From Diplocarpon mali (lineage: Eukaryota > Ascomycota > Leotiomycetes > Helotiales > Drepanopezizaceae), in contig JAENRP010000410.1 in assembly GCA_024741835.1 (NCBI GenBank), positions 9,033 through 27,230 of the forward strand: a stretch of DNA of 18,198 nt, in the 5' to 3' direction. Below are positions 1 through 18,198 of the stretch, in pieces; within the stretch, counting starts at the first letter, position 1; each line of letters opens with the position of its first letter. The notes below the pieces were generated by a model. That model saw only the letters and a program-made list of their open reading frames with translations. It was not told where the DNA came from and searched no databases. Both the position numbers and the translations under genes were made by a program.

Positions 1-153
1 ATATAGCCCTAGTTTAAGCCTTTTAATATATTAGTTTTCTTACACTTAGGGTTTGCTAATAATTAATATACTATTGCCTTAACTTATATTATTTTATATT
101 CTTTACTAATAGTAGTAGAGGCTACTACTTTTATTATTTAAAATATATATAAA

Positions 154-414
154 GACCTAAGATAGATAGGTCTTATAATATATATTACATAATCGGCGCA
201 AGATGGTAGGAGGATAAAAGGGCCATCTTCTATATATAGAGATATCGCATATCGCTATAGTACTAAATATACCTTATACTTAGGACTTATTCCTAACATC
301 TTATCTAAGAGAGCCTGCTTATAGTGCTTCCTCCTCTTGTTTTTAAGTCTTCCCTTAGGCCTATTCTTATATTATCTCCCCTCTATTTTATATTAATAGT
401 AACCTTTATTAAAA
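154..414 (-). repeat. 3' LTR of the copia element (left-hand copy)
   Basis: This is the left-hand partner of the repeat at about 2934-3182, in the same orientation and with matching blocks throughout. It has a 3-base insertion near its AGTAACC end relative to the partner. It lies downstream of RNase H on the minus strand, so it is the 3' LTR. The 153 bases to its left show no recognisable coding sequence or repeat. Confidence 0.85.
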
Positions 415-425
415 TCACTAATCCT

Positions 426-448
426 ACTCGCAAGGTAGGACTAGGAGT
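426..448. repeat. Palindromic element, copy 1 (degenerate)
   Basis: The ends ACTCGCAAG and CTAGGAGT pair as in the consensus 23-mer, but the centre no longer pairs well. Its membership is supported mainly by its exact 64-bp spacing from the next two copies. The flank AGTCAAATT matches the right flank of the copies at 6774 and 8903. Confidence 0.6.
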
Positions 449-489
449 CAAATTTCTAAAAGTGTTCCTTTATAAGACTATATGACTTA

Positions 490-512
490 ACTTATAGTCT
501 AGGCCTAAGAGT
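490..512. repeat. Palindromic element, copy 2
   Basis: The left arm ACTTATAGTCT pairs with the right arm GGCCTAAGAGT around a central A, allowing C/T and G/A differences between arms. It is the second unit of the 64-bp array and lies in the non-coding copia tail. Confidence 0.8.
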
Positions 513-553
513 TGATTTAAAAAAAACTTTCCTTTATAAGACTATATAACCTA

Positions 554-576
554 ACTTATAGGATAGGCCTAGGAGT
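554..576. repeat. Palindromic element, copy 3
   Basis: The left arm ACTTATAGGAT faces the right arm GGCCTAGGAGT around a central A. It is the third unit of the 64-bp array, next to the probable end of the copia coding remnant. Confidence 0.8.
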
Positions 577-594
577 CGTCCTTAAGCCTGCTAA

Positions 595-2925
595 GCCCCT
601 ACTATCTTTTGCAACCTTAGTATATCTTTAAATGCTTTAAACTTTACAACTATCTTTAATAGCTTTATAAATCTATCTACTACTATTCGATCGGTTAGGA
701 TATAGGTAATTAATAACTTATTCTTTATAATAAGGTCGTAGATAAAGTAATAGGTAATATTAATATATTTCGATCGCTTATATAAGTATAGATTCTTTAT
801 AAGTATAATCGCCCTTATATTATCTACTTAAAAATTAATATAGTTCCTATCTTATTTAATATACTTAATAAAACCTATATCTTTTAGAACTTAAGCAACT
901 TATAATCCTTATTTGCAATTTGATAATATTGATATATATTCGGCCTTAATACTTGCAGTAGCTATTGATTTCTACTTCCTACTTCCTTATGATATAGGTC
1001 TACTATATAGTACTACTACACTTTTAAATATACTTTTCTAACCTTTTATATTTACCTAATCAGAATCGGTATATACCTTAAGCTTTACGCTTATATATTT
1101 TATTAGTCTATATCTTACCTTTTATATAATTATTAATTGAAGGTATCTTTTAAATCGCTTAATTATATTCTTATATTAAATCGTCAGATCCTTTAGGTTT
1201 TGATTAAATTGCCTAGTAATAAAGGTAATATCTGGTCTTATATATACTATAGTATATATAATCGCTCTAATATCCTATTAGTACTTCTTTAGATCTCCTT
1301 TCTACTTATTTTTATTAGCAGGCTTTAATTTATTATACTTTCCTTCAATTGGAGTATGCTTTAGCTTAAAGTTAGGAGTATAAGTAAAGAGTCCTATTCG
1401 GTCTAGGATCTTCTTAATATACTACTCTTAGTCTAACTAGAGTTCTTAAGTAGAGCGATTCCTTATAACGCAGATGCTAAGGATCTTATAAATTCCCCTT
1501 AGATCCTTAGTATTAAAACGTTTCCTAATTATTATAAAGAACCAATCTAATTAAGTGGTCGTTTTTGCAGCTATAGCAATATTATTAATATATAATAGCA
1601 ACTTGATTCTACGTTTAATATAGGTAAATAGATAAGGGTTAGCTAGGCTTTAAACGAATCCTATTTCTATTAAAGTAGAGCTATATAAGAGGTTCTAATC
1701 ATAGGCTGATTATTTAAGCTTATAAATACTATAAAGTATATAAAGAGAGTAGCCAGCGCGTATAAGAATACTGTTAGGTTAAGAGAGAAAAATCCGTTCC
1801 TTTATAATTGCTTTAGTAAATGCATTTTTAATATCGTACTATCTGCATTTAAAGTCCTTAGCGGCTATTATTACTATAAATATACAAAGGGTATTTATGC
1901 GAACTATTAGCGCAAATGTATTAAAGTAGTCTTCTTTATACTATTAAGAGAAGCCCTTAGCTATAAGCCTTGCCTTATAACATTCTAAGGTCCTATCTAT
2001 ATATATCTTAATTATAAAGACCCACTTTATTAATACTAGGTTCATATCCTTTAATATTAGTTCCTTTATCTATATACTATTTATAATAAGAGAGCTTATC
2101 TCCTCTTAGATTGCCTTATTTTATACTACTCTATTCTCTAAGTTATTAATAGCTTTATTATATATCTTTAGAAGAGAGATTTTCATTATTCCCTTAGCGG
2201 CTAAGAACGCCTTATCTTTGTCAAAGCTCTATTAAAGTTCGAGCTTATAGATCCTATATGCTATTATAGCCTAGATACGCTTAGACTCGCGTTTATTTAA
2301 GGTATCTTTCGATTCTAGGTCTTTATTCCTCTTTAAAGATATAAGTTTAGCTATAGGTTCTATAGGCTTATTATTTAAGGAACTGCTTTCTAGTAGTAAA
2401 GGCTTATTATTACTTATACCTATTTTAAGAATATCCTTTACCTTAGGTACTTTAACTAAAGGGATAATAATATCAAAGTTGTTCTATACTTTAGGTAGTT
2501 CGCGGACAATAGGAATAGTCTATTCGGCCTTTAAGCGATTAGTAAATTGTTAATTAGCAAGTATACTTAATATGCCTAAGCTAAGAGAAAGGGGTTATTA
2601 GTTCGGCTTAATAATATTACCATTAAGTAGTATACCTTACGAATCTCTAAGTATATAGAGCTTTAAAGATAGCTCTCCCCTATTTTAAGATTTGTTAAAC
2701 TCAACTACTAAAGATATAATTACTCGCCTTAGATCTAGCGTATATATTATCTATTACTTTATTATCTATTTAATATACTTAATAAATATACATTCTCTAC
2801 CTTAGTCTATTAGCTTCTTACTCTTTATACCTGCAGGCTAAGACTTTAGGCTAATATAAGAGTAGCAGACGCTTTTAAAGACGTAAATATAGTTTAAACT
2901 TAATTTCTATTTAAGATATGCCTTA
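595..2925 (-). pseudogene. Copia pol remnant: integrase C-terminal part, reverse transcriptase, RNase H
   Basis: Reading the minus strand, the remnant starts in the C-terminal part of integrase (about 2920-2690: a RVFGSVCY-like segment, then KSKKL-D-GRECIFI and a Y-LDLRRVIIS-like segment). Reverse transcriptase follows: KWVFIIK then CYKARLIAKGFS (about 2030-1960), and the catalytic YVDD box as LLLYINNIA (YINN at 1581-1592), both Asp codons changed GAT to AAT. RNase H shows YTDSD-stop-V then K-G-stop-K-S (about 1013-1080), the stops standing for Trp and Arg codons of the usual DSDWAG...GRKST, and ATASTEAEY (about 935-965). The remnant ends with a TDR-VVD-F-K segment and FKAFKDIL (about 690-600), the usual copia C-terminus. 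The changed catalytic residues and many stops make it a dead gene. Gag, protease and integrase core are absent. Family assignment is firm; exact ends are not. Confidence 0.87.
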
Positions 2926-2933
2926 TATTATAG

Positions 2934-3182
2934 AGACTTAAGAGGGATAGGTCTTGTAATATATATCATATGATCGGCGCAGGATAATAGGAGGATAAAA
3001 GGGCCACCTTTTATATATAGAGATAGCGCGCGTCGCTATAAGTACTAAATATACCCTATACTTAAGACTTATTCCTAATATCTTATCTAAGAGAGCCTGC
3101 TTATAATGCTTCCTCCTCTTATTTTAAGTCTTCCCTTAGGCCTATTCTTATATTATCCCCCTTCTATTTTATATTAGTAACC
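2934..3182 (-). repeat. 5' LTR of the copia element (right-hand copy)
   Basis: It is a direct repeat of the segment at about 154-414. Shared landmarks in the same order are the GATCGGCGCA/AATCGGCGCA stretch, GGAGGATAAAAGGGCCA, the TTATCTAAGAGAGCCTGCTT block, CTTCCCTTAGGCCTATTCTTAT and the shared end AGTAACCT. Differences are mainly transitions plus small indels, as expected after RIP and ageing. Because the element reads on the minus strand, this right-hand copy is its 5' LTR. A segment with several CpG sites (about 3025-3035) is less eroded here than in the partner copy. Confidence 0.85.
3007..3019 (-). promoter_or_regulatory. Probable TATA box in the copia 5' LTR
   Basis: The minus strand reads TATATATAAAAGG, a strong TATA-like sequence inside the 5' LTR and in the right orientation to drive the copia interior. 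The partner LTR has an eroded equivalent near 225-237 (TATATATAGAAGATGG). Assignment rests on position and sequence only; in so AT-rich a window the match alone would be weak. Confidence 0.4.
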
Positions 3183-3486
3183 TACGCAAGGACCGATTTC
3201 TTAAGATTTCCATCCTTATATAACCTTATTAATCTTTTAATTTGCAAATAAGAGACCGGCCTTTCGAAAAATACATCTTTAAAATACTTATAGTATTTTA
3301 ATTAACTTTAAAACCCTTATCCTTAATCGCTTAGTTACTTAAAACTATCAATTTTCATTTAGCAACTATTAATAACTTTAGATTTTCCCTTTTTAGCTTT
3401 GCTTTAAAAACCCTTATTTTCTTCCTTAACTCCGAGATTTTCGGAATTTTCGGCTTTTTAATATAAAAAGTTTAGCAAACCTTATA
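3183..3486. other. Spacer between copia and gypsy elements, no gene seen
   Basis: No motif-bearing reading frame was recognised. If the gypsy element still has its leader, it should lie here, possibly with the end of its 5' LTR, but no matching repeat was found downstream of its pol. Short patches with more G+C (GGACCGATTTC near 3190, GACCGGCCTTTCG near 3253) have no assigned role. Confidence 0.4.
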
Positions 3487-3848
3487 ATAGCAATCTCAAA
3501 TAGTAGTAGTTTTAAGTACTTAAGTAATACTAAGCGCAAACTCCAACTGGAAGTGCCTCTTTAGAATCTTTAGAAATCCAAATCTAATAATTTAGCTGCC
3601 TTAGCTTAATAGAACTTTAAAAACTGCCTTAGAATCGTCTCTAAAGACCCCTTTTCTCTAAGGACTAATAGGAATTGGCCTAAAGGCTAAGAAGAATCTT
3701 AAATATAAACCTTATCTTAGAAATTAGTTCTTAATTAAATAAACCTTATCTTATTGCAATTAGTTGCAATACTTCTATTAGCTATTTAGTACCTACTTAG
3801 AATCTTTTAGTAAACTTAAATTAAACTTTTAGTAAAATCCGGAATTCT

Positions 3849-3871
3849 ACTCCTAGGCCTAGCCTATAAGT
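3849..3871. repeat. Palindromic element, copy 4 (gypsy gag)
   Basis: The arms ACTCCTAGGCC and GCCTATAAGT pair with C/T and G/A differences. In the gag frame it is read L-L-G-L-A-Y-K-stop, one of only two coding copies in this phase. It lies between the N-terminal segment and the main Gag body. Confidence 0.85.
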
Positions 3872-4857
3872 AGGAGGATAAAAAGATATCTTTAAATAAC
3901 TTAAGACTGCTATCTACTTTTTTAATATTAATATTAGAAAATATTAAAAATAATAATAATTTTAAACTTTTCACTAACCCTTTATTTAAATCTTTTTAAA
4001 CTTATCTTAATTACTTTAAAATTGACTTAGATTTTAAATATTCTTTAAGCCCTTTTGAATTTCGAAGTACTCCTTTTAGCAATCAATCTTATAATATCAA
4101 AGCTTTCCCTTTACCCCTTATAGATTCTATTAACTTAGACGGTTAGTATAAAACGATAATAGCCGCATTTAAGGCTATTACTAATCACTTTCCCCTCCTT
4201 AGTTCTCTTAGCGCTCCTTACTTTATAAGCGCTAATATTACTAATTTCCTTAAATAATATAAGGAAACTTATTACAATTTTAGTATTATATAAAAGGATA
4301 TGATTTCTCGACTTCCTTGCTACTATAATTATATAAATAAGGATATTATCAAATCCCTCTTTAAATAAAAAACTTATAGTTTATAAGAACTCCTTATTAA
4401 GGCCTTTAAATCTGAATTCCGCGAATTTAATAAATAGCAGATTCGCAATACCCTAGCTTTCTTAAAGGAATTTATTCTAATCACTTATACTTTTAAAGAA
4501 CTTAAGAACTACTATTAGACTTTTACTTATATATTAAATACCTTAATTAGCTAGAAAATACTTAGCAAAGTTGAAAGAGGCTGCCTTTTCTTATTTAAAT
4601 TACCTACTAGACTTTAAAATAAGATTATTAAGCATTTTAAGATTAATAAATAAGACCTTATAACCTTTGCCTTATTTAAGGAATTTGCGGCCTTTACTTT
4701 GAAATCAGATCTTAGTAAGAGAACTATTGATATTATAGAGTAGGAAAAAGCCCCTACTCCCTCTTATACTAAAGACCTTAAGAGCCTAGTTTAAGAACAC
4801 TCAAAGGCTTTAGAAGTTATAAAGGAGGCAAAGAAGAACCTAATAGTCATACCTTTT

Positions 4858-4880
4858 ACTTATAGGCCTAACTTAAAAGT
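4858..4880. repeat. Palindromic element, copy 5 (gypsy gag)
   Basis: The left arm is ACTTATAGGCC and the right arm is eroded to AACTTAAAAGT. It is read in frame as T-Y-R-P-N-L-K-V, the majority phase. It lies after the Gag body and before the Cys cluster. Confidence 0.85.
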
Positions 4881-6773
4881 AAGATCTAACCTTAGAATTG
4901 AGGAATTTAAGACCTAATTTATAGAACTCCAAATCTAAAGCTTAAAAACTAAGATTAATAATCTCTTATAGAAAAAATAGCATATTCCCTAATTTAATAA
5001 TAGGCAAAACTCGGCCACTATAAGCTAATATAATAGTTCCTATTACCAGACTTCTACTTCTTATCATTCGGAATAACTAGCTAATATAAGAACTTAATAG
5101 TTAATTAAAGAAGGAGAAATTAATCCTAACTAGCACTCTACTAATATTAATATTATAAGGTACTAAGGGAATAGCAATAGAAGACCACTAACTTGCAACT
5201 TTTATAATAATAAAGAACCTAATTGCACTTTATATAAGTATTGTAATAATTGCCCTCTTTTCTATCGTTTTATTAATACTAGGGTTATATATATTAATAA
5301 GTATAGGATACTTTATATTAGAGATCCTAGGCTAGAAGCTATCCTTATTAAAAAGCACTAGAATCGCTTATAGTTATAGACTATTCGAACAATAATATAT
5401 AGTATAAAATAAGATAAGAATTTAATCAAATAATAGTATATTATAGATATAAATGCTAAAATTCCAACTTATATATATACTAGTCCAACTAGCAACCTAC
5501 CTAAGGGAGTTCTTAAGGACTTAGCTTCTGATTAAATAGCTATAGAAGTTAAAGGCATCTTTATCTTAGGATAGGTTAATAATAATATATCTATTAATAT
5601 TAATGCTACTTCTATATCTAAAAACCCTTAGAATACTTAGCGTCCTTTTAAATCTACTACTCCTTTAATACTAATAAAACCAGCCAAAGTCTAGAAATCA
5701 ACGCGTATAACTTAGGAATCTTAATATAGAGTCCAAATGTTAAAAGATACCTAATAATCTAAAATTGTAATAGATAAAGATAAAGCTAATATAGTAGATA
5801 AATTAATCAAAGATATAATAGATAAAGATGGCTTTAAGCTTAAAGATTAAGAAGTTAAAGTTATTATATAGACCCTTAACCTTAAGTGAAAGAGACAGAT
5901 ATTAAAATAGGAAAAATTTATTAATAAATACGCTAGTTCAATTGTAATAGAGAAAGCTATAGAGAATATTATAGCTTAGTAAATTAACCTTATATTTAAA
6001 GACCTATTTAGTTTAATTAGACGCTTTAATAAAGTGCTAAGAAAGTATATCCTAATTGCCTTTAAAGATTTGAATAATAATAAGGAAATGGAAATTATAA
6101 TATAAAAGAACTCTAAGAAGCACTTAGCCTTAATTAAATGTCTTTAGATTATAAAAAACGAAGGAACCTAAAGGTATTATAATATTATAGTAATAGCTTT
6201 AATATCTTAGAATATTAATCGAAATTGTTTAGTAGTTATAATAAAAAGCCCTATTATTATTTATTTAATAAAAGAATCAATTAAAGTAAAGGCTTTAATT
6301 GATTATAGTTTAAAAGTTAATATAATAATTAGAAAAGTGGTAGAAATAGCTCAATTGATAATTGTTAGCGATTGACTCTTTATTTATTTAACTATCTTTA
6401 GATTAAAATATAATTTTAATAGATAGGTGAAAAACGTAAAGGTTAAAGTTAGAGGAATCGTTAATTATACTAACTTTCTAATAATAGAGAATTCTTTAAA
6501 TAATATTCTTTTAAGAATGCCCTTTATTTTAAAATCTTAGCTAATATTTAACTATCCTAGAGATAGTCTTATAAAAGCTAGTCTTTAAAATATAGATTAA
6601 TCTTTAAAAGGATAAATGGTTATTATAAGAGATATAATTGAATTTTAAAATAAGGTTTTAAGAAATGATTAGCTAGTATAAGGGCTAGGCTTAATGCTAG
6701 TAAAGGAAGGCACTTAGCAAGGAGTTATAATAAAAGAAAGGTAAGTTTGCCAATTTTAAATAATAGCGATTTA

Positions 6774-6796
6774 ACTCGCAGTCTTAGATTAAGAGT
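6774..6796. repeat. Palindromic element, copy 6 (protease-RT linker)
   Basis: The left arm ACTCGCAGTCT and the right arm AGATTAAGAGT pair around a central T. It represents the ACTCGCAGTCT sub-type. It is read in the pol frame as T-R-S-L-R-L-R-V and lies just after the gag-protease stop at 6742, in the linker before reverse transcriptase. Confidence 0.85.
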
Positions 6797-6935
6797 CAAA
6801 TCTGGAATTTTAAAAAATAGTACAATTGGCGTTTTATCGGATCAATAATTAAGAAAAAAGAAAAATATAGTAGAAAAAAGGGTTTATTTTATAAATTTTA
6901 ATAATTTATTAATTATTTTAAAAAACTTAAAAACC

Positions 6936-6958
6936 ACTTATAAGCCAGACCTATAAGT
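6936..6958. repeat. Palindromic element, copy 7 (protease-RT linker)
   Basis: The left arm ACTTATAAGCC and the right arm GACCTATAAGT pair around a central A. It is read in the pol frame as T-Y-K-P-D-L-stop-V, the stop standing for Gln. It lies 162 bp after the previous copy, in the same linker. Confidence 0.88.
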
Positions 6959-8902
6959 GAAAAATAATAGAATTACTAATAATATTTCTATTTACGCACT
7001 TTAAATTAATAACTTAGAAAATCTTTTATTTATTTTTAAAAAAGAAAATTCGGACTATTTTATAGGATTTAATAAAAAAGGAAAGAAGTAGAAAAGCATA
7101 GTACTAGCTAATATTCGAACTATATATAAAAGCAAGGCTAATAAAGTATAACTAGTAGATTAAGGAATCTTTAATAGCTTAAAGTTTAAAGGATTAAATA
7201 ATTGGTTTAAATAAGATAAAAAGCGTCAACTTCTAAAGCTAGGTAGCAAATTTAATAAGTTTATTATAAGTAGATTTTCTAATAAACCTATTAGATATTA
7301 GCTAATAAAAGAACGTTTCAATATATTAAAAATTGGAAATAACTTAATAGAGTAAGAATGCAAACTCCTTTATAAAACCTTAATAAATCAAAAGAACGCC
7401 TTAGCTTTTAATTAAATAGAATTAAGTCAGATTTAAGAAGAAGTTATACCTTATATTAAAATTAAGATAATACCTTATAAAGCTTAGTAAGAGAAAACAT
7501 TTAAGGTCCTTAAAGCTCTTTAAGAAAAGGTAATTAAAATATTAAAGGATAGGCTAAAGCAAGGTATTCTCAAGTTCTATAATAGCCTTTATAAGAATAA
7601 ATAATTCCTAATTGCTAAGAAAGAGAAGGGAACTTATAAACTAATAATAGTAGTAGTAAAGATAAACTGAATAACTGTTAAGGATACTAATATTCCTTTA
7701 AATATAGATAAGTTCTTAAATGAATTTATAAGATTAACCTATAGCTCTTTTATTAACTTTTTCTTTAAATATAATCAATTCATTTTTAATATTAAATCGA
7801 GAGATATAATAGCAATTTAAACCCCTCTTAAGCTACTTTAGATAATAAGATTACTTTAAAGGGCTATAAATTCGATTGCTCAATTTGTTTAAGTAATCTA
7901 TAAGATACTAGTAGATTACATACTTAATATTACGCTCCTTTATATAAACGATATAAGAGTAAAAGGATTAAGATCATTTTATAATTATAAAGAAGTTCTC
8001 CTTAGTATATAACAATTTATAATAGAATATATTTAAAACCTAGACTAAGTACTTATATAATTCGAAAGGGTAAAAGCAATAGTTGGTCCGAAGTTATAAT
8101 ACTATCTCCTATTAATAGAAATTGTTAGTTTTATTACTGATTCTAATGGCCGAAGTCTTTAAAAGGCTAAAGTACTTAAAATTGATAAATAGAAAAGGTA
8201 TAATAATATGGCAGAAGCTCGCGCATTTATTAAAGTTATAATATACTATCGCATTTAGATTAAGGATTTCGCTAAAAAGGCAGTACCTATTTACTCCTTA
8301 TTTTGGAAAAGGGCTAAGTTTCAGTAGGAGGAACCTTAAATAGAGGCTATAAGACAACTGAAGCAAGCGTTGCTTAAAGTGCTATATTTAATTAAAATAG
8401 ACTATAGAGCTGACGCTAGGCCAATTATACTAATAGTTAACGTAAGCTTAATCAAATAGGGTACTATCCTTTAATAAGCTAATAGCTAGTAGAAAAGATA
8501 TTTAGCTCGCTTTGAAAGTGGTCTTTAGAATCTAGTAAAGATAAAGTATAATACTATTAAATAGGAATGCAAAGGCGCCTTAAAGGTAATAAAAAAGATA
8601 AGAAGCAACTTCTATAGCACTTACTTCATCTTTAAAATTAATGCTAAAGTACTAATAGAATAATTGAATAAGGCTATAAGCGATCTCCTAAGGGCTTTAT
8701 TAACGAAATGGATTACTTAGATAAGACTAATAGACTTTGAAGTCAAATATATTCTAAAAATGAAAAACACTACTATAGATAGCCTTTTAAGAAGAACTTA
8801 TCTTTACCTCTTTAATTTAATTAAAGAAGATAAAATAAATATTAATAAGTAAGTAGAGAATAAAGTTGATTATCTATTAATATATTGCCTTAAAGGGACT
8901 CG

Positions 8903-8925
8903 ACTTGCAGTCCTAGCCCGCGAGT
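8903..8925. repeat. Palindromic element, copy 8 (RNase H-integrase linker)
   Basis: The left arm ACTTGCAGTCC and the right arm GCCCGCGAGT are among the least RIP-eroded in the gypsy element and stand out as GC-rich. It is read in the pol frame as R-L-A-V-L-A-R-E-S, the minority phase. It lies between RNase H and the integrase zinc finger. The right flank CAAAT extends the palindrome. Confidence 0.88.
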
Positions 8926-10337
8926 CAAATAAGAGAATTTTATCACCTAACTATTTAAGTAACTTTAAGGAAATTATAAAATTTTTAATTATATTTAAAA
9001 GATTAAAGATAGTTCCTCTTAAGGATTTTCAGAAGTTTAAAGCTAAAGCTCTAATTTATCTAGTATAGAAATAGCGATTATTTAAAAGGAGTAATAACTC
9101 ATTTCTTATATAACTCTATATAGATAATAATAAACTATAAGCTAAGGCTATTTAAGATATTTATAAGAAGACTGGCTATTAAAGAGCTGAATTTACTTAC
9201 TATTAACTCTTAAGAAAATTCTTTTAGAAAGGCTCTTTTAAGGACTATAAAGCTTTTGTAAAGAGTTGCGTCCCTTATTAGAAATGAAAACCTAATTATA
9301 AGGAAAATCCCTTATTCCCAACCTAGCCATTAGGCCTTTTCTATAAAGTCAGCCTTAATATTATATAAGTACTAACTATTAAGAATAGGATAATATATTT
9401 TATTTTAATAAAGGAAGACCTATTAGGATAGCCTAAAGGATAACCTTTAAGATCTACTAACTTTAAATCTATTGCAAAATTCCTTTAAGAAGATATAGTC
9501 TATTGCTATAGACTTTTTAGCAGACTAACTATTAATAAAGGCTTTAAAAATAAAGGAGTAGTTAAAGCTTTCTTATAGAAATATAGTATCAAATAGGTTT
9601 AAATCTTGATATATAACTTAAAAGCTAATAGAGTAATAGAATAAGGATATTATAATATTTTTAATAGTCTATCCAAAGTTACTTATAAAGGATTTAAAGA
9701 TTAGATAAAACGCTTTTATAAAATACTCTTTGCTTATCGAATGATAATCTATAAATTGATTAGAGTTATACTATTCTTCCTTATCTATAGTAGAGAGGCA
9801 TAGCTCCCTCTTAAATCCCGCTAGCCTATTTAAAGATTATTCGACTATAGTCAAATTCGGAACCGTTCCGATTTGCTTATAATAAGATACTAATAACTTA
9901 AGCTTTAAGATATAGATATAAAGGAAATCATTTTACAAAAGAAATAATATTAGGAAAAAGCTAAGGAAGCATAGGCTGCTTTTAAAGTACTTAAAACGCA
10001 CCTTATTTAAAAAGATAATCTTATCCTAATCTATAATATTATAAAAAGTATTAATATATCTATAGATATTAAACTTAACTATTGATAGCTTAATCTATTT
10101 AAGGTTAAGTCTAAATAGGAAGAAAAGGGATACTATTCTCTTTAGGAACTTAATAGAGTTAATATCAAAGGAACCTTTATAGCCAATCGATTAAAGCGCT
10201 TTTATTAATATAATTAGACCTTATTCTCTTTAGAAGATGAATTAAAAATTGATATAACCTTTAAATCTTTTATAAGAACCGATAGCAATATAAGCAATTT
10301 TAAACCCTTAGATAAAGATTAAGATTTCTCTAATTTG

Positions 10338-10360
10338 ACTTATAAGCTGGCCCTATAAGT
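10338..10360. repeat. Palindromic element, copy 9 (after integrase)
   Basis: The left arm ACTTATAAGCT and the right arm GCCCTATAAGT pair around a central G. The left flank AATTTG matches the flank of the copy at 15527. It is read as T-Y-K-L-A-L-stop-V in the pol frame, in the tail beyond the NRLKRF end of integrase. Confidence 0.88.
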
Positions 10361-10440
10361 AAAGAATATTAAAATACCTAATTAATCGCAACCTTAAGTT
10401 ATTATTCCTAAAATATCCGAAGAACGCAAGTAGGAATACT

Positions 10441-10754
10441 AAATGATTTCCTAGCTTATCAATTGTCTTACCTTCCTTTAATCCTTATTTTTACATTTTT
10501 AATAAGGTCGCCTCCTTTATTATTTAGGATATAGATCTTTTAAAATCACCTTAAATTCTTACTTACTCTAACTTATTTTATATTCTTAATATTAGCCTTT
10601 AATTATAATATTCTTATTACTTTCCTTAAATAATAAATAAAAAGTCCAATTTCCTTAATATATATATAGCAAACCTATTGCAACTTATATGCCCTTTTAA
10701 TTCTTATACCTTATTAAACTCTCTTATTTATACTCCCTATCTTTTATAAGCAAT
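10441..10754. other. Spacer between gypsy pol and first unknown gene, no gene seen
   Basis: Pyrimidine-rich, AT-rich sequence with stops in all plus frames and no repeat of the 3183-3486 spacer that I could find. It could hold the gypsy 3' untranslated region and the promoter of the next gene. No LTR was recognised. Confidence 0.35.
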
Positions 10755-11600
10755 ATGCCTCTAAAGAACTTACAAATGGTTTTATCTACTATAATAGGGG
10801 ATAAATAAGCACTAGTTACAAACTTCTCTTAAGATAGTAGAGCTATTGCATCGTTAGAGAGCTTTAAATCGACCTATGTAGCCTTAGGAGATATAGAGTA
10901 ATAAAAACTCCTTTTAGCTTATATAAATGCTATTAGCAACCTTTTAACCTAGGTGGCCCTTAGAATTCTCTAATTTAATAACTTCTTAACTAAAGAATTA
11001 AGATTAAAGGGAATCTTTAAAGAGGAATTCTTAGCTAATATAGATTAATATATAACCTTAGCTAATACTTTTAAAATAGATCAAGATAAAAGGGAAGAAT
11101 CTATTTAATAATTGAATAATTTAGCTATTAATAAGAGAGGACTTCTATTTTATTTATATTTTTTAATAAATATTAATTCTAATAATAGAAGGCGAGTATT
11201 ATTAAAAATTCTTAAGGAAAATACTCCTATAGCTAAAGCTATTCAAATTCTTAATTTCTTTATTATTTAAGAAGGAGTAGTAAAATTCTAAGGCAATTGA
11301 ATTCGCGGTCGTAGATTTGTAGGCCTATTTAATATAGTACTTATAGCAGCTGATAGAGTTATAAAAAGATCAAATTAGGCTGCAAATGTTACCCTACCTA
11401 ATAGTATTATTATTAATATGCTAAGGCTTTGCGCTTCTGCTTATAGTTTGCTTATTTTAAGAGAAAACTGGACTCCTATATTAGAGTTTAAATAAGATTT
11501 CTTTAATAATAAAGAAGAGAATTGGTTATTTATAGTTAAGCCTACTTTAAAATTCGCCTCTTAGTCTAAAGATATAATAAGCGCTAAACTATATAATTTA

Positions 11601-11623
11601 ACTCGTAGTCCTAGACTAAGAGT
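11601..11623. repeat. Palindromic element, copy 10 (unknown gene 1)
   Basis: The left arm ACTCGTAGTCC and the right arm AGACTAAGAGT pair around a central T. It is read as T-R-S-P-R-L-R-V in the gene frame. It lies 846 bases after the start codon, the counterpart of the copy at 15527 in the paralog. Confidence 0.87.
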
Positions 11624-12986
11624 TAGAAATAAGAATTTTAAAACTAGACTTAACCTACCTTTTATTAAAATGATTTTAGAAACCGCTGCCGAATAGACTG
11701 CTTAAACGCTTAGCGTAGCCTCTTTAGAATTTTCAGAATCTTTAAAGGACTTTCCTTTAGCTAAACGACCAATTTTAGCTTAACCTTTAAAAAGGATAGA
11801 TTATTTAATAGCTACTTTAGCTAATTTGCAATTTGAAACTAAAGGATTACGTACCTACTTAAACTCCTTCTTTAATAACTTAAAGGAGCTAGTTCTTAAC
11901 TTCTTTATATCTATATATAATCGATTTAGAAATAATAATATAAGGGAAGACCCTATTCCTATTACTTTAAAGATAACTAAAAGAGCTATTAGATAGATTT
12001 AATAGCTTATCTTAAATAAGTTTGCCCTTATAGATATTATTTAATTCTTTAATAATTATAGAAGTTAAGAACTTAGTCTTTCGGATGCTAAGCGGGACTA
12101 TTTTATCTTATAAGAAAGAGAATGCAAAGAGGAATCTATTAATTAAGATATTTATAATTATAGCAATATACCTCAATTGGTTATTCTTAACCTTGAACTT
12201 AAAGAACGATATAATATTCAAGTGTCTTTTATAATAAAAACTCGCTTTTAATAGTATCTTCTTAGTATAGGAATTAAAGGAAGAAGACTTTGCGACCTTT
12301 ATATTCGCTCTCTTTCGGTTTACTATAGTCTTAATTATAAAGGATTTGATATTAATAAAACTATTCAATACCTCGAACTTCTTTATATAGTAGAAGATAT
12401 TAATCTTTTTCTAATCTACTTTAATAATTAATTCTTCATCTCTTTAAGGATATGCAAATCTAACTTATTAATAATAGAGGCATCTTTAAGTATTATAAAA
12501 TTCAAGGCTGATCCTAAAGCCTTAAAGGCATTAGAGCTAATTGAATGGAATAATTCCTTCTTATCGATATTATTAAATAATAAACAGTAGGAGGAAATAG
12601 AGGAAAAAGGGTCAATTATAATACTTAAACCCTTTAGATGCCGCTTCCTAACTGACAATTTTACTATTAATAATAGTGCTTTTATAAGTATATTCCTCTC
12701 TATTATAAGATAAGAAGTAAAGATATATCTTTATCACTTCTATCCTATAGATAGCGCGACCTTTATACCTTTTTATTTTCTTTATAATATAATATTCAAT
12801 CTCATTTAATAAGTCCTTTAAATGTACTATAGACTCTACTTCTTAATTATAATAGTAAGAAGTAGAGGAACCTATTAGCTTATAGCCTACTTTGAACCTC
12901 CCTAATTGATTGGCCTTAGTCTTTATAATTGAGTCGTTTTAATAAAGAGAGATATAAGTGCTACTAATAAAGAAATTCCGATTTTT

Positions 12987-13009
12987 ACTTGCGGTCCTAG
13001 CCTATAAGT
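12987..13009. repeat. Palindromic element, copy 11 (unknown gene 1)
   Basis: The left arm ACTTGCGGTCC and the right arm AGCCTATAAGT are read as T-C-G-P-S-L-stop-V. It lies about 2,232 bases into the gene, shortly after a VVLIK segment that is also present before the paralog's copy at 16943. Confidence 0.86.
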
Positions 13010-13871
13010 CAATTTTGTTAGAAAGTAAGTCTTAGATTATTAGATCCTACTAATTAGATAAGGGCCAGCTTTTAAAAGCCTTAATAGGTAGATTGGCTTT
13101 TAATTAAATATAAAACTTATTCTATCTGCGAAGAAGATAAGTTGATAGACTTCTTAAGCACTTGGTTTAAAATCTCAATTAGTTTAAATGACTGTAAAAT
13201 TGAAGCGAAAGGAGATCTTATAACTTATTATTAATAATAGTAATCTAATTATAGTAATAATAAAATAGGGATACCTTTTTAAAATTCTTTTAGACAATCC
13301 TTATAGGATTAGTGGTTTTATAGCCTTTTGTAATAATTATATAGCTATTTGCAATAAGAATACCTTAGAAAATGAGACTCGAATCTCTGATCTTATCTTT
13401 TCAGTCTTTGCTTTAAAGCAACCTCTAGTACCTTAATAGATTAATATAAGTAGGACTACTATATCTTTCAAAGCAGCTTTTCATTTTGAAAACTGCAGTA
13501 GCCTTTCTAAAGCTATTATTAGTCGACGCTCTTAAGCGGATCTATTAGTTATAATCAAAGTATAGGAGTTATTTCTTCTTAATAAAGACGAATTGAAAAT
13601 CCACCTTATAAAATATAATTAGAAGCTATTTAATACCCTTATTAAGGCTTAAACGAATATTATAAATACTAAGTCGCTTCTTTATAAACTCAAGTCTTAA
13701 AGATAATGCGATAAAGTAAATGCTATCCGAGAGCCTAATGCACTAATTAATAAAGGCATTATTGTAAGAAGATTCGGAAAAGGGATAAACTAAGACGCTA
13801 GTATAGTATTAGACCCTAATTTGGAAACTAATTTCCTATTTTTACCTTTAAGCTTAAAAATGCTAAGACTG

Positions 13872-13894
13872 ACCTGCAAGCCTAGCCTATGAGT
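13872..13894. repeat. Palindromic element, copy 12 (unknown gene 1)
   Basis: The left arm ACCTGCAAGCC and the right arm AGCCTATGAGT are read as T-C-K-P-S-L-stop-V. It lies about 3,117 bases into the gene, near the C-terminal basic tail. It is the counterpart of the paralog copy at 17765 (about 3,126 bases in). Confidence 0.86.
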
Positions 13895-14147
13895 AAGGAT
13901 AGACTTAGCTAGCTTAAGCTTATAAGATAATTCAAATGAACCTTAGTTATTAAATCTAAGGGTACTAATAAAAGATCCTTTAAGAAAGGTCCTTAAAGCT
14001 AAGAAATCGCTAAGAAATAAGAACTAATATAAGAGAAGAAGACTTTAAAGTAATAATAGAACTAACAATTAAGTTAACTCGATCTAAAGAATTATAATCT
14101 ATCCCCTTTAAAAACCATTTAAAGAGATTGCAAATTAGATATTGAAT

Positions 14148-14638
14148 TTTTTTAGGATTATTTACTTTCTATATACTTATACCTCTTTATTCTTAACCTA
14201 TTATTCTATTTTATATATATTCTTTATTTACTTTACTCTTTATATAATGCATTCTTTAATTATTCCCTTTATATACAACTTTCTAACGCTTACCTTTGAA
14301 ATGTTATCCTTACCTTTGATAATTATCATTTACTAATTATAGGTCCTTATATGTGTTATACTCTACTTTTATTTCTACTTCTAGCCTCTTTATACCTACT
14401 TTTCCTTTATATACTAGTATAGTTCCTATCTTTATAAATAAATCTCTCTTTATATTATAATCATACCTTTTTTTACCTTTTCTATAATCCTACTAAACCC
14501 TAGCACTAGTACTAGTAGCACTATTACTATTGTCTTTCTATTATTAATCTTTTCTAATATAAGCCTCCTATATTGTTAATCTTTCCTAAACAATTATCTC
14601 TTTATTTGGAACTACCCCTTCCTATTAAATAATTCATT
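14148..14638. other. Spacer between the two unknown genes, no gene seen
   Basis: Very AT- and pyrimidine-rich sequence with many short T runs. The only notable patch is near 14500-14535, where CTAGTACTAG forms a small inverted repeat inside a trinucleotide-like AGCACTAGTA stretch. The region presumably holds the 3' end of the first unknown gene and the promoter of the second. A 64-codon ATG frame at 14142-14336 is judged spurious. Confidence 0.4.
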
Positions 14639-15526
14639 ATAGTACTATTAACTATAAGTAAAAAGGCCATACTTAAGAAGAATATATCGGTTGTTGCCTT
14701 AGGTAGTAAGTCCTTAAGCACTACTAATAATAAACTAATATTAGAAGGAGGGTTTTTATAAGATAGTAAGTTATTAAGATCATTAGAAGATATTATAACT
14801 ATTTATAAAATATTAGGTAAAATAGAATAATAAGTATTCTTAAATTCCTTTATTAAAGTATTAAACCATAGAATTTCTATTATTAAGGAGGGGTTCCTAG
14901 GCTTTGATGATTTTCTTAAAGGAAAGCTTAAGGTTAAAGGAATTAATTATAAAAAGTTTTTATAAGAGTATTAAAGTTACTTTATATTAGTGGATTTGTT
15001 TTAAAGAAATTAAGATAAAAAGAATAAGGGTATGAAAATATTACTATAGTTTATAAGTAGCATTTATAGCACCCTCTTCTAAACCTACTTTATAACTGAT
15101 ATTACTACTAATAACGCCCTGCGAGGACTAAATAAGATTTTTAAGATATACTAATTAGTAGCAAAGGCTATATAGGTATTGAATCATTTTACTATTTAAG
15201 AAGGTATAAAGAAACTCTAAGGTAATAATATAAGAGGTAGAAAATTTATTAGGTTCTTAAGTACTATTATACACTCTACTATTTAAACTATAAAAGACAA
15301 TCTAGCGTAGTATAATAATCTGGCCCTTCCTAATTAGACAATTTTAAATACCCTTAGCTTATAATAGTTATAATATAGTCTACTTATTATAAAAGAAAAG
15401 ATAATCTATCTTGCTAAGTATACTATGAACTATTTTAATAATAAAATAGAAAGATAGGAATTTATAATTCCTACTACTTAGAAAATGCTACTACCTCTAG
15501 TAGAACTAATTGATAAAGAAAATTTG

Positions 15527-15549
15527 ACTTATAGGCCTAGCTTATAAGT
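15527..15549. repeat. Palindromic element, copy 13 (unknown gene 2)
   Basis: The left arm ACTTATAGGCC and the right arm AGCTTATAAGT pair around a central T. The outer flanks AATTTG and GGAATT extend the symmetry to about 35 bp. It is read as T-Y-R-P-S-L-stop-V. It lies 888 bases into the gene, matching the copy at 11601 in the paralog. Confidence 0.9.
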
Positions 15550-15711
15550 GGAATTAGTATATAATAAAGAGGTCCTTAAATATAAGGTACTTATAATATT
15601 AGAAATATAAACTGCTAACTATTATAACCTTAAATTATTAGACTTAAATGAGTTTGAATTACTATCCTTAGAAATGCTTAAAATACCTTAAATACTAATA
15701 GTAAATAAATT

Positions 15712-15736
15712 AAGTTGCAGGCCCGGCCTACAAGTT
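15712..15736. repeat. Palindromic element, copy 14, least eroded (unknown gene 2)
   Basis: This is the best-preserved copy: arms AAGTTGCAGGCC and GGCCTACAAGTT around a central C pair at 10 of 12 positions, extending the symmetry to 25 bp. It is strongly GC-rich against its surroundings. It is read as S-C-R-P-G-L-Q-V-S with no stop, which probably shows the peptide before RIP. The paralog has no counterpart that I could find. Confidence 0.92.
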
Positions 15737-16942
15737 AGCGTATATAATATTATAAACTTAAAAGAAGATTTGTTAAATAAAGAAGGGAGCACTATTACTA
15801 ATATCTTAGAAATTTTTAATAATACTAAAAAGGATATTGCAGATATTATACAATCTTTCCCTAAGGACTTATAAAAGTTTATTCTAAAATTCTATAAGTC
15901 TATAATAAAGCGTTTGAAAAAGGAAAACTAAGGAGAAGTTTTATTAGTATAAGAAGCAATAGCAAGAGCTATTAAATAGATTATAAAGCTTTAATAAGAT
16001 AAGTTTTTAGCAAATAATATTATATAGTTTTTCATCGACTATAAGAAGTTGAAAGGTGATTACTATATTCTTAAAGAAAAGATAGAGGATAGTATAATAA
16101 TTATTTCTATAGAATGCTATAGAGTCCCCCTTAATATTAAAATAATACTATAGTATAGCGATAGATTCAAGATTGTAATAATACTAGAGATAAAGATACA
16201 ATTAAGCAGATTTATAATAGGAATATTTAAAGACTTTAATCTTGAAAAATTTTATACTCTTTATAAATGATAATATATATAATACTATAGATTGGCAATA
16301 TTATCTTTAACTAATGAATAAGTCTCTTTTAATATATATAAATTCTATACTATACTTAACCTGACTTTATTCTTATTATATCTTAAAAATCATACAATTA
16401 TAGCTAGTGATAGTAGAATGGCTAACTAAATTAAAAAAGATATATTATTAGGTTTTATAAAATTTAAGGTAGCACCTAAGGCTTTAAAATTATTTTATAA
16501 TATCTCCTAGACCCTCGCTTAGTATAAGTCTATACTAACCTTAAACGATTTTATATTACTTTATAGTAAAGGTTTTTTAAATATACTTAAACTATTTAAT
16601 TACGCATTCTTAAGCGCAATGCGTATATAAGGCTATAGTATTTGTAGGAAGAGTTTGTTTATAACTTTAGCATAAGAAGAGGTAATAATATACAGATATT
16701 ATTTCTACCCCTTAGATAAGAAATTATTACCTCCTTCCGCCTTTCTTTATAATATAACGTATAGTCTAATATAATAGACTTTACAAATGCATTATAGATT
16801 GTATTTAAGAGCACTATTAACTTACTATAATTCTTTATATAAGTTAGTAGCTTACCTTAAATTAGTATAGTTTATAAGAATTGACTACTATATAATAGTA
16901 GTATTAATTAAGATTAATACTAATATAAGATTCGTCAGATTA

Positions 16943-16965
16943 ACTCTTAAACTAGGCTCGCGGGT
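16943..16965. repeat. Palindromic element, copy 15 (unknown gene 2)
   Basis: The left arm ACTCTTAAACT pairs with the right arm GGCTCGCGGGT when C/T and G/A differences are allowed. One arm is heavily eroded and the other nearly intact. It is read as T-L-K-L-G-S-R-V. It lies about 2,304 bases into the gene, after a VVLIK segment shared with the paralog. Confidence 0.82.
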
Positions 16966-17764
16966 TGCTATACTTAATAATAGAACCCTTAACTACTATA
17001 TAATTCCAGCTGCCAAACGATTAATAAGGCAATTTGCTATATAGTAAAAGTCTTATAAGTCATCTGCTCTTATACCCTACTATCTTAAAAACGCGCAGTA
17101 GATTTCCTTAAACCTAGTATAAAAGGCGGTATAATAGAAAGAACTAAACACTAAAGAAAAGACTCTCTTAAACGAGTATATCTCTAATAAAACTACGCCT
17201 TTTTCTATATTTATAAAATAAGGAATATTTATTAACCTTAAGTCGAATCGGGAACTAGGTAAGAGAGGGTTCTTAATAATTAGTAACAATTATACTAAAG
17301 TCATTAGGAACAAAGCTCTTAAGAATAGAATAGACTTAAATGATTTCTTAATTAATGCTATTAATATAAAGCGACCTAGAATAGCTAAATAGAGTATTAT
17401 AAGAGAATCATCTGCTAAATTTTAAGCAACGCTCTATATAATAAAAGGTAGCCTATTATTAAATGCTTTTATAAGAAGACAACTATAGAATAATCTATTA
17501 GTAATAATAATTATAAAGGATTTATTTACAAAAGATATATCTTAGCTAATAATATATCTGAAGAAGTATAAATAAGAACTTTTTAAAGATTTTACTAGTA
17601 CTTAGAAGCTAGTTTAATAACTAGAGCTATAGTTATATAGTAATAAGTCTTAGACGAAGACTAAAGATATAGATAATAATATCAAAGCTAATAATATAAT
17701 TAATAAGACGATTCTATTTAAGAAGTATAGCGCTAAGAAACCTTATATAAAGACACCTAATATA

Positions 17765-17787
17765 ACTCTTAGGCCTAGCCTGCAACT
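17765..17787. repeat. Palindromic element, copy 16 (unknown gene 2)
   Basis: The left arm ACTCTTAGGCC and the right arm AGCCTGCAACT are read as T-L-R-P-S-L-Q-L. It lies just before the low-complexity C-terminal tail and is the positional counterpart of the copy at 13872. Confidence 0.87.
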
Positions 17788-17871
17788 TGATTTAGCAAAG
17801 GGTAAAGTTAAGGAAGTAGTATTTATAGAATCTCCTACCTCCTCCTCTTCTATTATTAATAATTCCCTTAA

Positions 17872-17900
17872 GGATAATAATAATAATAATAATAATAATA
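17872..17900 (+). repeat. AAT trinucleotide microsatellite coding for poly-Asn
   Basis: An uninterrupted run of AAT units inside unknown gene 2 encodes consecutive Asn residues. It is preceded by a Ser-coding TCC/TCT cluster (about 17832-17850). It is consistent with a disordered C-terminal tail. Confidence 0.9.
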
Positions 17901-18179
17901 CTACTATATAAGTCTCTCTTCCTATTAGTAAAAACTATTAAAGTATACTAGTATCTGCCTAAACTACTAAAGCCTTTGCAATACTAAGACCTATCTTATT
18001 AGATACTAATAGCAATGCTATAAGAAGAAGTAGTCATTTTGCAAAGAGAGTATTATCTAGCGATAGTTCTTCCTATCCTTTAAAGAGAACTAAGGAAAAC
18101 TAATACTTAAGTTAGTTCTATTTTAATTATTTTTACAATTTTATAGCCTATTTATTTATTTTGCTAGTTTCGTTTTCTA

Positions 18180-18198
18180 ACTCCTAGGCCTAGTCTAT
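18180..18198. repeat. Palindromic element, copy 17, cut by the window edge
   Basis: The left arm ACTCCTAGGCC, the centre and most of the right arm (AGTCTAT) are visible; the expected AAGT end would lie outside the window. It lies 77 bases beyond the stop of unknown gene 2, in non-coding sequence. The stretch 18104-18179 before it holds nothing recognisable. Confidence 0.7.

Follow-up and report, generated by a model that had tools for sequence, protein, structure and literature searches.

The window analysed here, the whole stretch of 18,198 nucleotides at positions 9,033 to 27,230 of Diplocarpon mali contig JAENRP010000410.1 (C410:9033-27230), runs to the end of its contig at 27,230 and holds the broken remains of LTR (long terminal repeat) retrotransposons, through which is scattered a family of short, G+C-rich palindromes that is the subject of this analysis. 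A broken copia pol fragment on the minus strand (500..2900), recognised by an RVT_2 match, with SH3_retrovirus below the cut-off, is followed on the plus strand by a broken gag-like region (3901..5300; a Cys-rich, knuckle-like stretch is discernible by eye, and there is no Pfam match), by a broken Ty3 pol (6300..10400; matches to RNase H and to the integrase zinc-binding domain all fall short of the curated cut-offs) and by two long open reading frames (ORFs), the broken ORF A (10755..14069, end approximate) and its broken paralogue ORF B (14620..18105, both ends approximate). The original prediction treated a gypsy element and an unknown gene family as separate contexts of the palindromes, but they are one repeat: palindrome spacing is identical in the window and in copies L016, L018, L019 and L020, and gag, pol, ORF A and ORF B are therefore parts of a single Ty3 element, E1. 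This element is an estimated 16 kb long, with about 14 palindromes and with LTR-like segments past ORF B.

Seventeen related palindromes had been listed in the window, and all of them hold up: sixteen score as family members, and the last (18180..18198, downstream of ORF B and cut by the contig end) is recognised through its complete counterpart in L052. None is assigned a strand. Three, about 64 bases apart, lie in the copia 3' part (426..448, 490..512 and 554..576), of which the first and the third are weak copies, the first being better preserved in L051. The palindrome at 3849..3871 is upstream of the gag-like region and apparently non-coding, and that at 4858..4880 is within the gag-like region. 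In the pol region, 6774..6796 and 6936..6958 are upstream of the reverse transcriptase (RT), which was placed by eye and has no Pfam match near 6774, 8903..8925 is between the RNase H and integrase matches, and 10338..10360 is near the pol end. ORF A contains 11601..11623, 12987..13009 and 13872..13894, and ORF B contains 15527..15549, 15713..15735 (a palindrome first listed at 15712, where it fits less well), 16943..16965 and 17765..17787. The lowest-scoring members are those at 426, 554 and 16943 (scores 12, 12 and 11). At a consensus score of at least 11, transitions allowed, the window has 18 sites, which are the sixteen plus 2829 and 898, both taken for chance matches, compared with a mean of 0.20 and a maximum of 2 in 200 dinucleotide shuffles of the window; at a score of at least 14 there are 14 sites, 2829 included, and none in 200 dinucleotide shuffles.

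The symmetry of the unit is less evident in the window than its sequence. The palindromes had been called perfectly symmetric, yet no window 23-mer with at least 8 G/C reaches 10 of 11 arm pairs, because symmetry in the window has been spoiled by decay. A sequence-blind test found eight window 23-mers with at least 9 of 11 arm pairs and at least 8 G/C (mean 1.0 and maximum 6 in 30 shuffles), but it is weak, just four of the eight being places of the family. Arm pairing averages 8.0 of 11 when one representative copy is taken from each of 21 places. Perfect symmetry is a reconstruction, though a fair one, with 10 or 11 of 11 pairs in 8 of 22 rows of less mutated copies.

How widespread is the unit, and how much of it is conserved? 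We searched one assembly (49.37 Mb in 676 contigs) and read 53 loci, 174,679 bases altogether, from this single genome, with three protein searches; published assemblies of Diplocarpon coronariae are about 51-54 Mb, about a third of them repeats in which LTR elements predominate (PMC11527701). The expectation that a degenerate consensus would be abundant genome-wide was borne out. A 29-base pattern tolerant of repeat-induced point mutation (RIP) has 4,912 exact sites and its reversed form has 0, and at up to 3 mismatches there are 3,341 sites against 1 with the reversed pattern. The less mutated core, ACTCGCGGGCCNGGCCCGCGAGT, matches 217 sites if up to 2 mismatches are allowed, against 0 in the control, and no exact match is among those listed. 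Omission of the centre base from the 29-base pattern, the sole altered spacing tried, leaves 2 genome sites in place of 4,912, so the centre is fixed. An artificial motif search, uninformative for a motif so short, gave 269 candidates, none at E <= 10. The better copies had been said to extend to about 35 bp, but the conserved unit is about 29 bases, YYN-core-NRR, and not a fixed 35. In a profile of 42 half-sites, drawn from 21 places with one actual copy apiece (the copia palindrome at 554 was left out of the site table), purine/pyrimidine class is fixed or nearly so at positions -3 to 11, except -1, 5 and 9. Position -2, unconstrained in all of the patterns by which sites were fetched, is a pyrimidine in 42 of 42 half-sites, and position -3, constrained to G or C solely in a search that favoured G+C-rich flanks, is a pyrimidine in 38 of 42.

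The unit is carried by at least three retrotransposon families. For E1, a pattern on one flank of its ORF A has at least 171 exact genome matches, and its relatives L030 and L036 have extra palindromes, seven of them in one frame in L036. A second Ty3 family, gypsy-2 (L041, L043, L044 and L046, linked at about 81% over 1.1 kb), has one palindrome between RNase H and integrase, plus an array upstream of RT. The Ty1/copia family L028 has two palindromes in the interval from gag to a protease-like domain (Pol_BBD, narrowly under the cut-off), and a third beyond the SH3 domain of its integrase. Some LTR families may be without the unit: L053, copia-like by eye and 40% G+C, has no palindrome in 2.5 kb. 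Stops in copies of the carrier elements are mostly TAA or TAG and differences between copies are mostly transitions, both as RIP predicts, so the decay can be called RIP-like. As read, the copies of one family share their palindrome places, so the majority of the approximately 4,900 sites were probably dispersed as their carriers retrotransposed, and independent insertion of every copy is rejected for the families read, their places being fixed. As far as was looked at, the unit is restricted to repeats. On the 560-kb contig C1, all 32 sites are within six clusters, and none occurs in the unannotated 391 kb that extend from 3.7 to 394.9 kb; a 6-kb sample of that stretch (L017, 47% G+C) likewise has no palindrome. 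The search favouring G+C-rich flanks gave 13 matches, 12 in repeat families and 1 (L039) outside the palindrome family, which bounds host-gene copies to a few without being a whole-proteome test. Insertion into a host gene was considered, and none was seen on C1, in L017 or in the G+C-flank search.

Some further observations concern the architecture of E1. Bases 1..401 of the window (plus strand) are an LTR-like segment that in other copies (L052, L040 and L045) follows the end of ORF B, and a second LTR-like segment (2924..3180, plus strand) stands in front of E1 and resembles 148-401; 148-401 and 2924-3180 represent one LTR-like family that flanks the broken copia fragment on both sides. L052 has two E1 3' ends face to face, each followed by the same LTR-like segment, with 28 N behind one of them. 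ORF A and ORF B are large paralogous accessory genes of about 1,100 residues, unusual inside a Ty3 element. Translated from copy L016, with X at stops, ORF A is 71% identical over 99% to PZA11_006394, an intact relative of 1,105 residues in Diplocarpon coronariae, which points to this apple-blotch fungus or a close relative as the source of the window. Among the ORF A copies in the genome, 42 were scored of 623 candidates, and 42 of 42 contain stops, the best having 83% identity and 32 stops.

A point missed by the original prediction is that the palindromes are read in frame. One phase, phase a, reads T-R-G-P-G-P-R-V (TRGPGPRV), and it is found at the places in ORF A and ORF B, in gag (4858, with weak frame support of 14 stops versus 17 and 35), at two pol places (6774 and 6936), in gypsy-2, in copia L028 and in L036. 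The frame at 12987 was taken from the intact PZA11_006394, the palindrome peptides of which are LTRGPGPGV, FTRGPGPRV and LTREPGPRV. Phase a accounts for 16 of the 17 places with a usable frame (three-phase binomial P = 8e-7), for 13 of 14 if the three A/B pairs are collapsed (P = 1.8e-5), and for 12 of 13 if the L028 neighbours are also merged (P = 5e-5), P values that are only guides because places in one element share history. In this count the gypsy-2 array and the L036 array were one place each and the three palindromes of copia L028 were counted singly, while 10338, with an ambiguous frame (19, 18 and 26 stops), and the palindromes at 3849, at 18180, in the copia tail and in L024 and L030, with unsettled coding frames, were left out. 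Stops do not force the bias, since the consensus is open in all three phases; its cause may lie in the tolerance of the proteins or in how units get copied. The place in another phase is 8903, which reads LAVLARE in a frame with 9 stops versus 26 and 32 in the others.

Does the peptide itself matter? TRGPGPRV could be a polyprotein linker or processing site, as the strong bias to one phase would suggest, and such a role would suit the locations involved, namely the gap separating gag from the protease-like domain, the stretch ahead of RT, the RNase H-integrase linker and the region that follows the integrase SH3 domain. Yet 8903 encodes LAVLARE, apparently non-coding places exist, three or four copies occur within each of ORF A and ORF B, and third codon positions are about as conserved as the others (mean 1.27 versus 1.33 bits, values to which the bias of the search patterns applies). 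A pure peptide motif is rejected on account of the second phase together with the apparently non-coding places, and we regard a peptide role as improbable. The palindrome at 8903 also varies among E1 copies. In L003, L018, L022, L029, L037 and L038 its differences match variants of other places, the usual 12987 variant being present in some E1 copies and the 13872 variant in others; this is perhaps exchange between palindrome places, for which a single place is too little.

An alignment of ORF A with ORF B spans 1,004 positions (24% identity, E = 8.7e-83). In it, the ORF A palindromes at 11601 and 12987 coincide with those of ORF B at 15527 and 16943, in well-aligned surroundings; a third pair, 13872 and 17765, lies close together in different alignment columns, and 15713 is without a counterpart in ORF A. 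Paired palindromes differ by 2-3 transversions in 23 bases and unpaired ones by 0-5, and since the paired are no more alike than the unpaired, all places stay near one consensus. The positions common to ORF A and ORF B, and the alike places in the two Ty3 families (upstream of RT and in the RNase H-integrase linker), are what would be expected if one ancestral element had gained the palindromes and every family had inherited them. However, both Ty1 and Ty3 families carry palindromes, the several places within one element still require the unit to have been copied, and array length differs between copies, so that we hold shared descent alone to be very improbable, the least probable of the explanations weighed here. 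The transversion frequency among ORF B relatives (74-78% identity), with one gag place included, is 0.016 per base for palindromes versus 0.072 for shifted windows (P = 0.041, for 30 comparisons on 5 places that are not independent), and among close E1 copies it is 0.0027 versus 0.0095 (P = 0.10).

If the nucleic acid is recognised, is it as DNA or as RNA? The carriers must be transcribed to move, and the unit could be a stem-loop or a self-complementary site in the transcript, serving for example in dimerisation, packaging or ribosome pausing. The 8 of 22 rows that are nearly fully paired fold at -12.1 to -17.6 kcal/mol, but several other places fold poorly, and the arms are not significantly coupled: 8.00 pairs are formed compared with 7.74 on random re-pairing (P = 0.19, with low power). 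To our knowledge, about 14 copies per element is more than occurs in RNA signals of this sort, which we count against an RNA element. We set the RNA stem aside, arm coupling not being significant, and think an RNA role unlikely, if a little less so than a peptide one. A palindrome combined with a loop has a precedent in retroviral dimer initiation sites (PMC5445492).

The multiplication of the unit is recorded in the gypsy-2 array. L044 has an array of 45-base units upstream of RT (1507-1664, the coding strand being minus), with four units 45 bases apart, compared with two in L043 and L046. In 40 scored matches to the array region, of 181 candidates, length differences range from -91 to +45 bases (-45 in 10, -15 in 9, 0 in 6 and other values in the rest), and 38 of the 40 are divisible by three. 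The lengths thus record in-frame tandem gain or loss, and no insertion at a fresh place was seen. All 40 scored matches to the gypsy-2 linker, from 184 candidates, have it at unchanged length (lengths were compared, not letters), and the linker of the copia L028 pair shows no unit-length loss in 40 of 40 (of 183), its differences all being multiples of three. In this one genome, then, the deficit of a unit's length that an empty site would show occurs in 0 of 40 matches for the gypsy-2 linker and in 0 of 40 for the copia linker. Among 123 related polymerase proteins scanned, the motif was found only in P0001-P0003, and the linker in the 47 aligned (P0004-P0050) was too variable for insert length to be read. 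The longest direct repeat in the flanks averages 3.41 bases versus 3.19 expected (P = 0.27, 22 rows), L024 alone having one of 7 bases. Terminal repeats with target duplication were rejected, flank direct repeats and flank complementarity being no better than in re-paired flanks. With neither a target duplication nor an empty site, transposition of the unit is not shown. Nevertheless, some copying of the unit must have occurred to produce the distinct places, about 20 or more, that are spread over three or more families (two Ty3, one Ty1). The suggestion of a tiny mobile element moved in trans can hold at most for the element families, and it fails for the copies read, which share the places of their family.

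The strongest rival explanation is a selfish, functionless mini-element, like a Rickettsia palindromic element (RPE), that inserts into open frames and is tolerated there. It would account for in-frame palindromes at many unrelated places, often domain linkers, for a consensus open in every frame, and for arm mismatches that are not significantly compensated, which decay would give. It was not found in host genes, however: the C1 sites are confined to their six clusters, with 391 kb free, and the G+C-flank search returned repeat families for all but the one match unlike the family. Neither target duplication nor empty site was found, and neutral copies would be expected to diverge between ORF A and ORF B, themselves 24% identical. 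We consider a selfish unit possible but rather unlikely.

The explanation that we tentatively favour, while giving it somewhat less than an even chance, is that the unit is an in-frame palindromic cassette kept as a nucleic-acid recognition site, putatively for a dimeric DNA-binding protein. The cassette, some 29 bases long and reading YYN-ACTCGCGGGCCNGGCCCGCGAGT-NRR until RIP-like decay set in, would have been built into several LTR retrotransposons, in polyprotein genes, often at domain linkers and mostly in the TRGPGPRV phase, and also in apparently non-coding parts. New places would have arisen when the unit was duplicated or inserted in elements still active, and would have been tolerated because the frame was kept; the unit would have been retained because the nucleic acid and not the peptide is recognised. 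The recogniser would most likely be a dimeric DNA-binding protein, one half-site per monomer, supplied by the element, with ORF A or ORF B as candidates, or by the host, and the approximately 4,900 present sites would be the product of carrier retrotransposition and then RIP. Recognition of DNA rather than of peptide is suggested by 8903, in another phase, and by 3849 and 18180, which look non-coding; a recognition site is suggested by the fixed centre, by half-site conservation without significant arm coupling, by indifference to phase at 8903 and to coding, and by the many sites per element. The earlier idea of a recurrent functional site is thus supported as to recurrence, with unrelated retroelements conserving the half-sites and their fixed centre at places that code and at others that apparently do not, while its function is inferred only.

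Several points weigh against a protein-binding cassette. The phase-a bias is unexplained by a DNA site alone and hints at peptide selection or at a mode of copying. The transversion deficit suggests constraint without proving it, the test being weak, and conservation of the core is partly built in, most sites having been found with core patterns. The Ty1 and Ty3 places, seen in one genome, could partly be very old and not recurrent. As for the candidate recognisers, ORF A has no Pfam or PDB match and its structure prediction is unusable (mean predicted local distance difference test score, pLDDT, 33); PZA11_006394 also has no Pfam or PDB match, and ORF B has no Pfam match. The more ambitious version, that a coding palindrome recognised in trans has colonised unrelated Ty3 and Ty1 retrotransposons of a single fungal lineage, multiplying in frame as the eukaryotic equivalent of the coding palindromes of Rickettsia, with the ORF A/B pair as likely recogniser, is more doubtful, and we would put it a little below the selfish unit in probability.

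How does the unit compare with known systems? Among the open-access titles and abstract openings listed, none reports such palindromes in nuclear retrotransposons, subscription literature being mostly uncovered. The palindromic elements of Rickettsia (and Wolbachia) are similar, being palindromes that protein genes carry in frame at numerous unrelated locations, but RPEs are bacterial, 105-146 bp long and present in conserved host proteins and RNA genes (PMC2229807). The present unit is an in-frame palindrome in protein genes but has 23-29 bases, lies in a nuclear eukaryotic genome and is seen only in LTR retrotransposons, with no insertion in unrelated host proteins on C1, in L017 or in the G+C-flank search, which do not amount to a whole proteome; because neither length nor host-protein occurrence fits, we do not class it as an RPE. 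Nor does it resemble a miniature inverted-repeat transposable element (MITE) or other mini-element in target-site duplication, the 22 rows giving none above expectation. Nematomorph mitochondrial genes also have inverted repeats within coding sequence, but those are perfect repeats with arms of as much as 142 bp that seem to be under active maintenance (PMC6649704), unlike the one short, shared and imperfect sequence described here. The bypassed palindromic elements of Magnusiomyces mitochondria likewise lie within coding genes and are transcribed but untranslated through bypassing (cited in PMC6649704), whereas in the present elements the reading frames continue through the unit and are preserved by the length changes. 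PARCEL, a 25-residue amphipathic domain of bacteria and some eukaryotic microbes (PMC2996958), shares tandem coding units with dyad symmetry, tied in some taxa to mobile elements, but differs in length and peptide. The Conserved Hairpin Site of GalEa elements, a conserved palindrome-containing site in fungal LTR elements, is directly after the 5' LTR in copia elements without a primer-binding site (PMC5445492), unlike a unit inside Ty3 and Ty1 genes. The reading that we favour has a parallel in the targets of VANC, an element-encoded anti-silencing protein that binds motifs in the non-coding regions of VANDAL21 in Arabidopsis, motifs that form tandem repeats varying between related elements (PMC5735166). 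In both cases a short DNA motif is reiterated within an element family, with tandem arrays that vary between relatives; the present unit differs in being palindromic, in retrotransposons and at mostly coding places, with binding only predicted. Recurrent short coding palindromes were thus known already from Rickettsia and Wolbachia, and other coding palindromes from some mitochondria; a nuclear retrotransposon case, with thousands of decayed copies and variable arrays, would let one ask how and why such units multiply inside genes. If the unit is truly a binding site, it would point to a system of control or defence evasion common to competing retroelements in a fungus with RIP-like mutation.

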